This document shows, in pieces, positions 10,372 through 48,679 of a stretch of DNA of 64,000 nt. Origin of the DNA: Vicinamibacteraceae bacterium (GTDB lineage Bacteria; Planctomycetota; Phycisphaerae; Phycisphaerales; UBA5793); the NCBI GenBank assembly GCA_011525805.1, contig WYBR01000138.1, positions 1-64,000 on the forward strand, written 5' to 3'. Under the pieces are notes generated by a model. That model was not told the DNA's origin. It ran no database searches and was given only the letters and a program-made list of their open reading frames with translations. Position 1 is the first letter of the stretch; every line of letters begins with the position of its first letter. Made by a program: the position numbers and the translations under genes.

Positions 10372-10575
10372 GACTCTTCTCCTGATAGGCCCCAGTGGGG
10401 CAAGGGTGGGAAGGTACGCTCGGGACGAGCAGGCCGTCGGGGCGACGGGCTGAAGAACGCTACGCCTCCCGGAGGGGAAATTCATGCCTCCGCCGGACCG
10501 GGGCCGAAGATTATCTGACGGCCGGCTGCCCGGTCGCTCCCCGTCCAGACACTGAACCATTGCATGGAGGCCGGA

Positions 10576-11118
10576 ATGGCTCAGCACCCGCAGGAACCGT
10601 CTACGAGTCAGCCCACGGTGATCGGCGGCAACTGCCGCCTCGTCGGCGAACTGTTCCTGGAAGGCAGCGCCATCATTCACGGCCAGATCGAGGGCCAGAT
10701 CGAGGTCACGGAGACGCTGGAAATCGGCGAGGGCGGGCTGGTGAGCGGCACCGTGCGGGCCGGCGCCATGGCGGTGCATGGCCGGGTCGAGGGGGAGGTC
10801 TACTGCACGGATGCGCTGCACCTCGGTTCGACGGCGAACCTCACGGGGGACGTGTTTGCGGCGGCGTTCTCGGCGGAGGAGGGGGCGGTCTGCCGCGGGC
10901 AGGTCGTCATCGGCCAGCAGGCGGCGGAGGCGGGGCGCGCGGCCCGGGGATCGGGCCGCGACGCGATGGCCGACGCGGCGGCCGAGGAGCAGGTTGTGGC
11001 GGGGCACATCGAGCAGGGCGCGCCGACTTCGGTGAGCACGAGTCCCAACGCCGCCAAGTCGCTGCTGCGCCGCCGGCCGAGCATTCTCTCGACGGGGCCG
11101 CGCAGCGCGGCCGGCTGA
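10576..11118 (+). CDS. Bactofilin family cytoskeletal protein
   Basis: A 180-aa protein. Bactofilins polymerise through a short right-handed beta-helix and scaffold cell-envelope processes. The beta-helical core runs from about residue 15 to 115 and shows the typical six-residue rungs (GNCRLVGELFLEGSAIIHGQ, then VEGEVYCTDALHLGS). The C-terminal part is low complexity and probably disordered. The start at 10576 (MAQHPQEP) is preferred because GGAGG lies 5 nt upstream; an in-frame ATG at 10564 would add four residues. A second bactofilin begins 25 nt downstream, so the pair is probably an operon. Confidence 0.9.
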   Translation: MAQHPQEPSTSQPTVIGGNCRLVGELFLEGSAIIHGQIEGQIEVTETLEIGEGGLVSGTVRAGAMAVHGRVEGEVYCTDALHLGSTANLTGDVFAAAFSAEEGAVCRGQVVIGQQAAEAGRAARGSGRDAMADAAAEEQVVAGHIEQGAPTSVSTSPNAAKSLLRRRPSILSTGPRSAAG

Positions 11119-11143
11119 CGCCGTCGTCGTCGGCGGCGGATGG

Positions 11144-11644
11144 ATGCACATGCTGGCAGGATTCGGTCGATCGCGTCGGGAGGCGGAGGATGGCCGCGGG
11201 CGCGGCGCGTCGCCGGGACCGGTGCGCGAGGTGCGAGCCGCGGCCGCGCCAGCGCCGTCGGCGATGCGGGCGGTGCGCTGCCCCTTCTGCGAAGCGCCCT
11301 TCGAGGTGTCGAGCCGGGCGATCAACGCGCGCTGCCCGAAATGCACGAAACCGATGCGCTTCGAGGACGCCGAACTCAACGGCTTCTGCAACCAGAACGT
11401 GACCACGATGGGGACGGTGCGCATCGGCCGCAAGGGCGTGGTGCGCGGCCGTATCGAGTGCGGGTCGCTGGTCGTGAGCGGGCAACTCGACGGCACCATC
11501 CGCATCAACGGGTGCTGCATCGTCCAGCCCCGCGGCGTGCTGCGCGGCGAGATCGCGGCGCGGTCGATGTTGATCGAGCGCGGCGGCTCGTTCGAGGGAA
11601 CGGTGGAGATCGGCGGCGGCGCCGCGGCGCGCCCGGCGGCGTGA
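11144..11644 (+). CDS. Zinc-ribbon/bactofilin fusion protein
   Basis: A 166-aa protein. After a basic, disordered start there is a four-cysteine zinc ribbon (CPFC at 46-49, CPKC at 64-67), then a bactofilin beta-helix (about 85-160) with repeated G-V rungs such as RKGVVRGRIECGSLVVSGQ. Bactofilins normally lack metal-binding modules, so this looks like a variant subunit that may cap or anchor polymers of the adjacent bactofilin; that role is inference. The first ATG is used; a second in-frame ATG lies two codons downstream. It follows the first bactofilin by 25 nt. Confidence 0.87.
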   Translation: MHMLAGFGRSRREAEDGRGRGASPGPVREVRAAAAPAPSAMRAVRCPFCEAPFEVSSRAINARCPKCTKPMRFEDAELNGFCNQNVTTMGTVRIGRKGVVRGRIECGSLVVSGQLDGTIRINGCCIVQPRGVLRGEIAARSMLIERGGSFEGTVEIGGGAAARPAA

Positions 11645-11813: not shown

Positions 11814-12470
11814 TCAGGCGGCGCGGCGGCTGTAGCGGCGGGTGCCGTAGCGGTTGCCGGTGCCGACGAGGCGGAGGCCCGTGGTGCGGCCGGTGCGGCG
11901 GCTGCGGGTCTTGTTCGTGCGGCGGGTCTTGCCCTTGTAGGTGCGGGTGGTCTTGCCGGTCTTGCGCGTGGTGTTGCCCGTGCCGTAGCCATAGCCGGAG
12001 CCATAGCCGAAGCCGTAGTTGTTCCACGTGCCGTTGCTCGTCCAGTAGCCGGGGCATCCCTTGACGGGCTTGAAGTTGCCGCGGACGTTGGGATTGAAGC
12101 CGGCGGGCTTGTGGAAGCACTTGTTGAAGCAGTTGCTGACGTGCCAGCAGATCTGGTTGGTCGTCCAGTTGTAGCACTGGGCGGGGGTGATCCAGCCCTG
12201 CTGAAGGGCGTACTGGATCATCTGCGGCCAGATCGTGTTCTCGGTCTTGCGGCAGTTGGTGCTGTTGGTCTTGCAGTTGAAGGAGGGGAACCAGAAGGTC
12301 TTGCCGTTGAACTTGGTGTTGAACGCGTAGCCGTTCTTCTTGAGGTTGTTCCAGACGAAGGTGGTCGTCTTGCGGCAGTTGCCGGCGATGTTCTCGACGA
12401 CGCTGTAGGGCGTCTTGCCGTTCTGAACGTTCGTCTTGAAGGTGCGGCCAAAGTTGTACGTCTTGCTCAT
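11814..12470 (-). CDS. Asn/Lys/Arg-rich, almost acid-free putative nucleic-acid-binding protein
   Basis: A 218-aa protein preceded by a clear AGGAG site. It has two glutamates (26 and 77) and no aspartate, so it is extremely basic. Residues 18-65 look like a winged helix: PYSVVENIA, NCRKTTTFVWNNLKKNGYAF, then a hairpin NTKFNGKTFWF. A second NCRKT element starts at residue 72 (NCRKTENTIWPQMIQYALQ), suggesting an internal duplication. Eight cysteines lie between residues 32 and 139. A Tyr/Gly stretch (152-165) leads to a 53-residue tail of Arg, Lys, Thr and Gly. Codon choice (AAC, AAG, ACC, TTC) is strongly biased, as in highly expressed genes. I recognise no family; a nucleoid or RNA-binding role is inference. 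Confidence 0.82.
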   Translation of the reverse strand: MSKTYNFGRTFKTNVQNGKTPYSVVENIAGNCRKTTTFVWNNLKKNGYAFNTKFNGKTFWFPSFNCKTNSTNCRKTENTIWPQMIQYALQQGWITPAQCYNWTTNQICWHVSNCFNKCFHKPAGFNPNVRGNFKPVKGCPGYWTSNGTWNNYGFGYGSGYGYGTGNTTRKTGKTTRTYKGKTRRTNKTRSRRTGRTTGLRLVGTGNRYGTRRYSRRAA

Positions 12471-12874
12471 GATGACTCCTCAGTCATGCGGCACGGGTCG
12501 GAGTATTCGACCATTGGTGTGCCTGGTTTGCGAATGTCCGGAGGACTGTCGCGGATTCGGATCACCCGTCGGCGTGCGGCAAGCGCGTGGGCTCGTCGTG
12601 CGGCCTTGTCGATCCATCCATCCCCTTGACGGCCAGTCTGCTCCCGACGCCAATGAACCCTTGATTCCTGCGGCCACGGCCGCAACGCAAGTGCTTATCG
12701 ACCGCCGGGGGAGGCAAAATCACTCAAGTTGGAAAACTTGTGCAAAGCGTCCGGTAAGGGCGAGGCGCGATCAGGCCGCGCTTCGGCTCGTCGGGCGGCG
12801 CGCAATACGCTTGCCGGCAAGGCGTTGCGCGGCGCCGGCGAAGGCAGCGGGCGGTGAGCAGCGCCGCCGGCGGC
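12471..12874. other. 404-nt intergenic region, no gene seen
   Basis: No open frame with convincing protein character, tRNA or hairpin terminator is seen here. The left end carries the ribosome-binding site of the basic-protein gene and must hold its promoter, but no clear -10/-35 pair could be chosen. A short inverted repeat AAGTTGGAAAACTT lies at about 12726. Confidence 0.5.
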
Positions 12875-13549
12875 TCAGTCCGGCGCGTGGTACACCTCGA
12901 CGCTTCCATCCGCGCGGAAGATGCCCACGCGCGTCGGCCGCTGCGACCAGAGGTGGCGCGCGAGGTCTTCCGGGCGGATCCAGCGCTGCGGAATCTCCAT
13001 CTCCTCCTGCGCATAGCGCTCGAGGAAGCGGCAGACGGCGCGGCAGCAGAACAGGCCGACCGTCGTCGTCTCAAAGTCGATCCCTTCGGCCGTGCGCGTG
13101 AGGATCGCGGCCAAGCGCCCGGCACGCGCGCGGTCGAGGCGCCACTCGAAGATCGTTACGGCGATGTCTCCCGCGCCGTCGAAGCGCCAGGCGACGTAGT
13201 CGGCCGAGGTCGGGGCATTCTCGCTGAAGACGTCGCGGCGGCGCACGAGATCGTCGCGGTCGCGGCCGAACTGGCCGGCGGGATCCCAGAAGATCGTCTC
13301 CAGCGGCGGCCGGAGGAGGCGCAGGCCGGTGTGCGTGCCGTGGGTCCGGCCGTGGCAGATGAGCACCTGGAGGGCGGGGACGAGTTCATCAAAGGAGTCG
13401 GGGTCGGCCGAGACAGCGGGCCGCGACGCCCACTCTGCGGGAGCGGCGGGCGGCGCCGAAGCGCATCCGAGCATCGACGGGCCGAGCAGCAGCGCGACCA
13501 GCAGCCAGGCGCCGAGCGTTGCGGCGGCGTGTCGGAGGATGGTGAGCAT
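12875..13549 (-). CDS. Putative lipoprotein of unknown function
   Basis: A 224-aa protein with a lipoprotein signal: hydrophobic WLLVALLLGPSMLGC, with the lipobox cysteine at residue 29 followed by a Pro/Ala linker. The mature part starts near LQVLICHGRTHGTHTGL, contains an FGRDRDDLVRRRD segment and a two-cysteine GLFCCRAVCRF stretch, and ends in a basic/aromatic C-terminus. I do not recognise the family. It is divergent from the ECF sigma gene at 13661, sharing a 111-nt intergenic region, so the two may be coordinately expressed. Confidence 0.75.
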   Translation of the reverse strand: MLTILRHAAATLGAWLLVALLLGPSMLGCASAPPAAPAEWASRPAVSADPDSFDELVPALQVLICHGRTHGTHTGLRLLRPPLETIFWDPAGQFGRDRDDLVRRRDVFSENAPTSADYVAWRFDGAGDIAVTIFEWRLDRARAGRLAAILTRTAEGIDFETTTVGLFCCRAVCRFLERYAQEEMEIPQRWIRPEDLARHLWSQRPTRVGIFRADGSVEVYHAPD

Positions 13550-13660
13550 CGCACTCGGCTATGGTTACGGACAGGGATTATGGGTCGGGGCATGGTATGG
13601 CCTCGATCGGCCGTCGTGCAATACCGCCCCGTCCCGGACGTTGACCTTCGTGGATTCTGC

Positions 13661-14269
13661 ATGGCTGAGGCTCTGGACACCACGCTCCGGTCGGCATGCT
13701 GCGGTGACCAGGACGCCTGGCGGCGGATCGTTGATGAGTATGCGCCGCGCGTGTTCGGCCTGCTCAAGGCGCATTGCCGCGATGCGGAACTGGCCGAGGA
13801 GATCACGCAGAGCGTCTTCTGCACGCTGGCGGCGAAACTGACGGGAAACGAAGGGTATGTCGAGCAGGGCAAGTTCGAAGCGTGGGTCTTCCGCATCGCC
13901 GTCAACCGGCTGCGCGACGAGGTTCGCCGCCGACGGCGGCAGGCGGTCAACGCCGATCAATCCTCGCTCGACGGGAGAGCCGGCTCTCCTGCGATCGCGT
14001 CCGACGACGACTCGGAAGGCCGGCGTTCGCGAGCGCTGCGCGACGCCATCGAGCGGCTCTCGGCGGCGGACCGGCAGATCATCGAGTATCGCTACGTCGG
14101 CGGGCTCAGTTTCCGGCAGATGGCGGAGGTGCTCGGCGAGCCGCTCGGAACCGTGCTCGCCCGCCAGCACCGGGCGCTGCGCAAACTCCGCGACCTGCTC
14201 GACGGCGCCGCGCTCGAAGGGACGAACCGGATGCCCGGTGAGATGAAGAGATCGACCCATGACGCGTGA
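13661..14269 (+). CDS. ECF-type RNA polymerase sigma factor (module 1)
   Basis: A 202-aa sigma-70-family protein. Region 2 covers about residues 10-90: DAWRRIVDEYAPRVFGLL, the CRDAELAEEITQSVF block and FEAWVFRIAVNRLRDEVRRRRR (promoter-melting helix). Region 4 covers about 130-185 with the helix-turn-helix LSFRQMAEVLGEPLGTVLARQHRALRK in two parts. Start ATG at 13661. The stop overlaps the next gene by 11 nt, so translation is coupled to that membrane protein, the usual arrangement for a sigma factor and its controller. Target promoters cannot be predicted. Confidence 0.9.
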   Translation: MAEALDTTLRSACCGDQDAWRRIVDEYAPRVFGLLKAHCRDAELAEEITQSVFCTLAAKLTGNEGYVEQGKFEAWVFRIAVNRLRDEVRRRRRQAVNADQSSLDGRAGSPAIASDDDSEGRRSRALRDAIERLSAADRQIIEYRYVGGLSFRQMAEVLGEPLGTVLARQHRALRKLRDLLDGAALEGTNRMPGEMKRSTHDA

Positions 14270-14807
14270 ACGAAGCGAACAACCCGATCGCGATCCACGG
14301 CTCGAAGCGCTCGACGCCGAGTTGCAGCGCCACCTTGCGCCGGGGGCGGAGGCGCGGCTGGTGGCCGGGCGCGTCTTCGAGGCCAGCCGTGGGCGCCTGG
14401 CGCGCGCCGGCGAGCGTCGGCCGCTGCGACTTGTGCCTGTCGAGGATGAGGGCGCATCCATGCTGCCGTCGCGCTCCTCGTCGGCCTGGCCGGTGATGGC
14501 GGCGCTGGCGGCGATGGTCGTGCTCGCCACCGTCATCACGATGCTCTTCAGCGTGCAGTCGGCCCGCAACAACGAGATCGTCGCCGGCCCGGGCGCCGGG
14601 GCGGAAGTCGCCGCGGCGGCGGAGTACGTCGCGATCGACGGCGCCTTCGAGAGCGAGTTCACCCTCGCCACGAGCACGCTGCTGAGCGACATCACCGCCT
14701 CGGTCGATTCGCTCGTCACGACGGGGGACGAGTGGGCGTTCGGCTCGCTCTCGAACGAGTTGCAGATCGCGACGACGAGCCTGTGGGAAGAGATGGAGTC
14801 CTTCTGA
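14259..14807 (+). CDS. Small single-pass membrane protein, likely anti-sigma partner
   Basis: A 182-aa protein. A charged cytoplasmic N-terminus (about 75 residues, LEALDAELQRHLAPG region) precedes one transmembrane segment, PVMAALAAMVVLATVITMLF (about 77-97), and an extracytoplasmic acidic tail. It lacks the HxxxCxxC zinc motif of ZAS anti-sigma factors. The role as an anti-sigma protein is inferred from its 11-nt overlap with the ECF sigma gene and its one-pass topology. The tail shows repeated short Ser/Thr-Leu segments. Confidence 0.8.
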   Translation: MTRERSEQPDRDPRLEALDAELQRHLAPGAEARLVAGRVFEASRGRLARAGERRPLRLVPVEDEGASMLPSRSSSAWPVMAALAAMVVLATVITMLFSVQSARNNEIVAGPGAGAEVAAAAEYVAIDGAFESEFTLATSTLLSDITASVDSLVTTGDEWAFGSLSNELQIATTSLWEEMESF

Positions 14808-48331: not shown

Positions 48332-48679
48332 GTGGCCAAGAGCAAGAAGACCCCGTCGTACAAGTTCACCAAGGCCGACAAGCCCCGCAGCAAGGGCGAC
48401 ATCTACACAAACCTTGCGACGAACACGGGCCTGAGCCGCAAGCAGGTCGCGGGCGTCTTTGACGCGCTCGCGGCGATGGTCGGCAACGACCTGAGGAAGA
48501 ACGGGCCGCAGATCTTCACGCTGCCGGGCATGGCGAAGATCGTGGTGCAGCGCAAGCCCGCGACCAAGGCGCGCGAGGGGATCAACCCCTTCACCGGCCA
48601 GCCGACCATCTTCAAGGCCAAGCCGGCGCGCAACGTCGTCAAGGTCCGCCCGCTCAAGGCGCTCAAGGACATGGTCTGA
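48332..48679 (+). CDS. HU/IHF-family DNA-binding protein
   Basis: A 115-aa nucleoid protein. HU dimers bend and compact DNA. The start is the GTG at 48332, with GGAGA 7 nt upstream. A 25-residue basic extension (VAKSKKTPSYKFTKADKPRSK) precedes the HU fold: DIYTNLATNTGLSRKQVAGVFDALAAMV (helices), FTLPGMAKIVVQRKPATKAREGINPFTGQPTIFKAKPARN (DNA-binding arm with the G-INPFTG motif, normally GRNPQTG), then LKALKDMV. The lysine-rich N-terminal extension is longer than in E. coli HU and common in planctomycete members. It ends before a strong hairpin. Confidence 0.92.
   Translation: MAKSKKTPSYKFTKADKPRSKGDIYTNLATNTGLSRKQVAGVFDALAAMVGNDLRKNGPQIFTLPGMAKIVVQRKPATKAREGINPFTGQPTIFKAKPARNVVKVRPLKALKDMV

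Follow-up and report, generated by a model that had tools for sequence, protein, structure and literature searches.

Bacterial H1-like proteins are described in reviews as consisting of the H1 tail only, to which eukaryotes added the globular winged helix (PMC6615755, PMC9769792); both reviews follow Kasinsky 2001 on this point. Chlamydial Hc1 and Hc2 and Pseudomonas AlgP are of this tail type, with basic tails of variable length that resemble the H1 C-terminal domain and with no winged-helix globular domain. In mycobacterial MDP1, the N-terminal part is histone-like and the tail H1-like, and this disordered tail is needed for DNA compaction (PMC5974015). Winged helices are also found in the chromosome organisers Rok of Bacillus, where the domain is C-terminal, and Sso10a of Sulfolobus, which is a coiled-coil dimer (PMC6212790, PMC4941522); the available parts of their descriptions do not mention an acid-free C-terminal tail.

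The gene analysed here lies in a 64,000-nucleotide stretch of planctomycete DNA (the window) and encodes a 218 amino acid protein that is predicted to combine both parts of H1. An H1-like nucleoid protein with a winged helix of its own would be new, because those of bacteria are described in the literature as having no globular domain. The nucleoid proteins of Planctomycetota are, to our knowledge, little studied, and the family adds a candidate chromosome organiser in that phylum. The likeness to linker histones H1/H5 (PF00538) comprises a globular part that is here a predicted winged helix, a long disordered basic C-terminal tail, and a very high pI, whereas the planctomycete family has an additional three-helix region and a conserved C-terminal motif, and its tails are rich in Thr, Ser, and Arg where those of H1/H5 are rich in Lys, Ala, and Pro. 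PF00538 gave no match at E ≤ 1 in 25 members and none at E ≤ 10 in the window genome, and no match to the histone fold (PF00808) was obtained in 24 genomes. The protein would work like H1 in plan and, judged by sequence, is not an H1 homologue. From Hc1, Hc2, and AlgP it differs by its predicted winged helix, and the curated families of their type were not matched (Pfam, 25 members; NCBIfam, window protein). With MDP1 it shares the joining of a folded DNA-binding domain, here a predicted one, to a disordered basic tail, but MDP1 is HU-type, whereas the 25 members had no match to the HU/IHF family PF00216, their predicted fold is a winged helix, and the genome carries separate HU genes.

The gene and its family

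The gene is read from the minus strand, starting at 12470 and ending with a stop codon at 11814-11816 (Table 1); the strand was absent from an earlier note made on this DNA. The unusual composition described there is correct: the protein has two Glu residues (positions 26 and 77), no Asp, and eight Cys, and its Asp plus Glu content of 0.9% compares with 5.1% in the next least acidic called gene of the window. A strong ribosome-binding site had also been claimed, and the Shine-Dalgarno sequence GAGGAG is indeed immediately 5' of the start. The frame is coding, as the protein is kept in other genera, with identity falling to about 22-30%.

Table 1. Features of the H1-like gene and its flanks, in window coordinates
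Feature	Position	Strand	Basis
Gene for the 218-aa H1-like protein with predicted winged helix, stop codon included	11814..12470	(-)	conserved single-copy family, coding-type codon bias, low synonymous divergence
Winged-helix domain (predicted), residues 8-62	12285..12449	(-)	AlphaFold2 (pLDDT about 80-93); fold matches
Helical region, candidate dimerisation domain, residues 70-118	12117..12263	(-)	AlphaFold2 (pLDDT about 73-89); weak Foldseek likeness to MecI/BlaI
Disordered Asn/Gly/Tyr-rich linker, residues 129-165	11976..12086	(-)	alignment and AlphaFold2; Tyr/Gly form only in window genome and G002
Basic disordered tail, Arg/Lys/Thr/Gly, no acidic residue, residues 166-218	11817..11975	(-)	AlphaFold2 and composition
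C-terminal motif TGLRLVG...RRYSRRAA, residues 197-218	11817..11882	(-)	alignment; counterpart of SYKFP...RRYRRAA in relatives
Conserved 5' element ATGACTGAGGAGTCAT	12472..12487	(-)	6-bp inverted repeat, Shine-Dalgarno GAGG between arms
Conserved upstream intergenic stretch	12471..12816	(-)	79% mean column identity, five species of genus
Terminator-like hairpin, 13-bp perfect inverted repeat, 5-nt loop	11738..11768	(-)	read directly from sequence

The earlier note had recognised no family, and database searches agree: the window protein had no match in Pfam, NCBIfam, or the PDB sequences and matched PHROGs at chance level only, and 25 homologues, scanned singly and as a profile, likewise gave only chance-level matches. 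The protein is thus the founding example of an undescribed family, absent from the databases searched. A secreted or structural family was rejected; the profile searches found none, and inspection of the 218-residue sequence by eye revealed no evident signal peptide. Phage origin was also rejected, as PHROGs gave no match above chance, there was none in phage records, IMG/VR, or BFVD, and the conserved chromosomal neighbours in f3 described below further speak against it.

Conservation in related genomes was found, in single copy. All six genomes of the window genome's own family have one copy, and a search with the core profile across 400 genomes sampled from the order (Phycisphaerales-type) detected one copy each in 31, 6 of them in f1, 1 in f4, 22 in f3, and 2 in f6. 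Samples drawn evenly from the class (397 genomes, searched with an earlier, narrower profile) and the phylum (392 genomes) contained no convincing member outside the order. Two weak genome matches, G036 and G164, were discarded because their reading frames show no such protein, and a third, G873, proved to be an unrelated helix-turn-helix protein. The 22 positive genomes in f3 are among 181 and represent 17 of its 45 genera, and the order as a whole can accordingly do without the gene. In f3, the gene order is PTPS enzyme, cyclophilin, and H1-like gene, followed on the other strand by ACT-domain and menaquinone genes; conservation of this neighbourhood argues for vertical descent within f3. 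In the tree, the f1 proteins group apart from those of f3, each set in a clade of its own, and one f6 member lies inside the f3 clade.

Predicted fold and basic tail

Two AlphaFold2 models were made, from 25 and 27 homologues, one of the window protein and the other of a central member of f3, aligned separately, and they have the same layout: one winged helix, a three-helix region, and then a disordered tail. In the window protein, the winged helix comprises helices 8-16, 21-32, and 36-45 and wing strands 49-54 and 57-62, with the conserved KFNG (53-56) at the turn of the wing, and the region that follows contains helices at 70-91, 96-99, and 104-118. Nearly all named top matches in Foldseek and VIA-align are winged-helix proteins, mostly DNA-binding; they include MecI/BlaI, ArsR, MarR, MntR, GntR, the winged-helix region of MYST, and Z-alpha. 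These scores are weak and none is significant alone (best Foldseek E 0.03, best VIA Z about 4-5), and the winged helix therefore rests mainly on the AlphaFold2 models. Linker histones are absent among the VIA-align matches listed, which is uninformative in either direction. The winged helix suggested by the earlier note is thus predicted by both models, but not its duplication, as a single winged helix is followed by helices and nothing but the NCRKT match brings the two halves of the protein into alignment (shuffle P 0.02).

The possible likeness of the helical region to a dimerisation domain derives from MecI/BlaI, in which a winged helix precedes helices that form a dimer domain; this Foldseek match has E 0.03, probability 0.6-0.9, and a large rmsd, and the Pfam family of MecI/BlaI was not matched at E ≤ 1 by the 25 members. 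MecI and BlaI differ further in that they have no basic tail and repress single operons.

The shared core of the members, about 120 residues, has a net charge of +11 to +18. The 53-residue acid-free tail that had been noted is present as described and is predicted to be disordered, with pLDDT under 50; across members, tails range from 32 to 139 residues, and over 27 members only one of 1,742 tail residues is acidic. The conserved C-terminal motif of the family is close to YKFPxxxxxRRYRRAA. One member, at L033:1300-2010 (+), has an additional long Arg/Lys/Thr tail before the winged helix and thus carries basic tails at both ends.

Other elements claimed from the single sequence fared less well on comparison. 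The two NCRKT copies do occur at residues 31-35 and 72-76, but as a motif they are lost in same-genus relatives, where the first copy is KYRKT, and the repeat is thus not ancestral; it is also weak, as a repeated 5-mer arises in 6% of shuffles (1% for residues 1-125). The Tyr/Gly hinge is limited to two genomes, that of the window and its closest relative (G002). Zinc binding was not borne out, and a zinc finger as a family trait was rejected: no Cys column is invariant over all members, and two members are without any Cys.

Codon usage and flanking DNA

Codon adaptation was calculated with 18 of the genome's ribosomal protein genes as the reference and was compared also with the 45 other called genes of the window. 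The index of the H1-like gene is 0.903, against at most 0.811 for the ribosomal protein genes and at most 0.768 for the window genes, and 2,000 synthetic genes encoding the same protein with ribosomal-protein codon usage peaked at 0.823. The earlier remark that codons are highly biased was therefore an understatement, as the value exceeds that of every ribosomal protein gene sampled. Within the genus, synonymous divergence amounts to 0.21-0.28, about half that of three neighbouring genes (0.33-0.61), whereas protein divergence is comparable to theirs. The excess of C-ending codons is kept in distant relatives whose neighbour genes have a GC3 of only 0.37-0.50; in a low-GC3 f3 relative, such codons make up 0.73 of the H1-like gene vs 0.26-0.43 of its neighbours. 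Selection on codons is a trait of the family, and expression is therefore probably high; the codon bias predicts that the protein is abundant in the cell.

The 5' element is constant across the genus except for one inserted T in two genomes. The conserved upstream stretch, which includes a conserved CCTCC, matches no Rfam family, and the consensus fold over five species of the genus has very little covariation, none of it convincing; a structured RNA leader was rejected on these two grounds. The stretch may possibly serve translational control, and pairing of the CCTCC with the Shine-Dalgarno loop was considered, on an alignment of five near-identical sequences. The hairpin is about 45 nt 3' of the stop, and a strong T run is absent.

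Possible roles of the protein

Our favoured reading, which we hold to be probable but by no means secure, is that of an abundant nucleoid-associated protein acting like linker histone H1, with its winged helix and polycationic tail. It retains from the chromatin-like proposal of the earlier note the predicted winged helix, the basic disordered tail, and the lack of a known family, but not the duplication, the NCRKT motif, or zinc. We infer that the ligand is DNA and that the protein dimerises and compacts DNA. The winged helix would contact DNA by way of its third helix and its KFNG wing, and the helical region would probably hold two copies together. The long Lys/Arg/Thr/Ser tail, being free of acidic residues, would neutralise phosphates of neighbouring DNA, and the protein would as a result bridge or compact DNA largely irrespective of sequence. 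The probable task of the conserved C-terminal YKFP...RRxRRAA segment is either to form a specific contact or to control turnover. HU genes occur in all genomes tested, with or without the H1-like gene; basic packaging is therefore not the task of this protein, which would work alongside HU. That it arrived independently at the linker-histone plan and ranks with the most abundant of the cell's DNA-bound proteins, in a lineage without detected core histones, is a bolder proposition to which we give somewhat less than an even chance. If true, both parts of H1 in one bacterial chain under strong selection for expression would constitute a convergent linker-histone analogue, allowing one to ask what the H1 architecture does to DNA without nucleosomes.

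The main rival is a lineage-specific RNA- or ribosome-associated protein, whose winged helix and tail would grip rRNA or other abundant RNA in the manner of ribosomal-protein extensions. Winged helices are present in some ribosomal proteins, an archaeal ribosomal chain is among the weak fold matches, and the charge and codon bias, which resemble those of ribosomal proteins, fit RNA or ribosome binding equally; the conserved leader could support autoregulation. However, the patchy occurrence, in 17 of 45 f3 genera, is unusual for a ribosomal component, and the gene is not part of a ribosomal operon, its f3 neighbours encoding a cyclophilin, an ACT-domain protein, and a menaquinone-pathway protein. 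We regard this role as unlikely.

Less probable still is a transcription regulator that recognises specific sequences, of the MecI/BlaI or MarR type but extended by a basic tail. The best Foldseek matches are indeed MecI/BlaI repressors, with their winged helix and helical dimer domain, but the codon bias far exceeds that of a normal regulator, acidic residues are almost absent from the core, the recognition helix of the predicted winged helix varies between members in the alignment, and no conserved divergent target gene lies alongside. A polyanion-granule protein (polyphosphate or similar), tethering granules to the nucleoid by its basic tail, is very improbable. Such a role is described for AlgP, a DNA-binding protein that carries an H1-like tail and associates with granules of polyphosphate (PMC9239181), but no link to polyphosphate genes was seen nearby, and the N-terminal domain of AlgP is described as alpha-helical and not as a winged helix.

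The window itself encodes an HU-family protein (PF00216) at 48332-48679 (+), with the N-terminal extension KSKKTPSYKFTKADKPRSKG and a codon adaptation of 0.80; its SYKF is similar to the motif that ends the H1-like proteins, which may be coincidence. Two f3 genomes (G016:C1:195182 and G399:C332:19824) have an HU-family gene about 5 kb from the H1-like gene. Elsewhere in the window, two adjacent putative bactofilin-like ORFs were noted by eye at 10564-11644 (+) from a repeated hydrophobic/Gly pattern, and at 13535-14804 (+) there is a gene for an ECF-type sigma factor (Pfam regions 2 and 4), followed by an unmatched ORF, possibly an anti-sigma factor.
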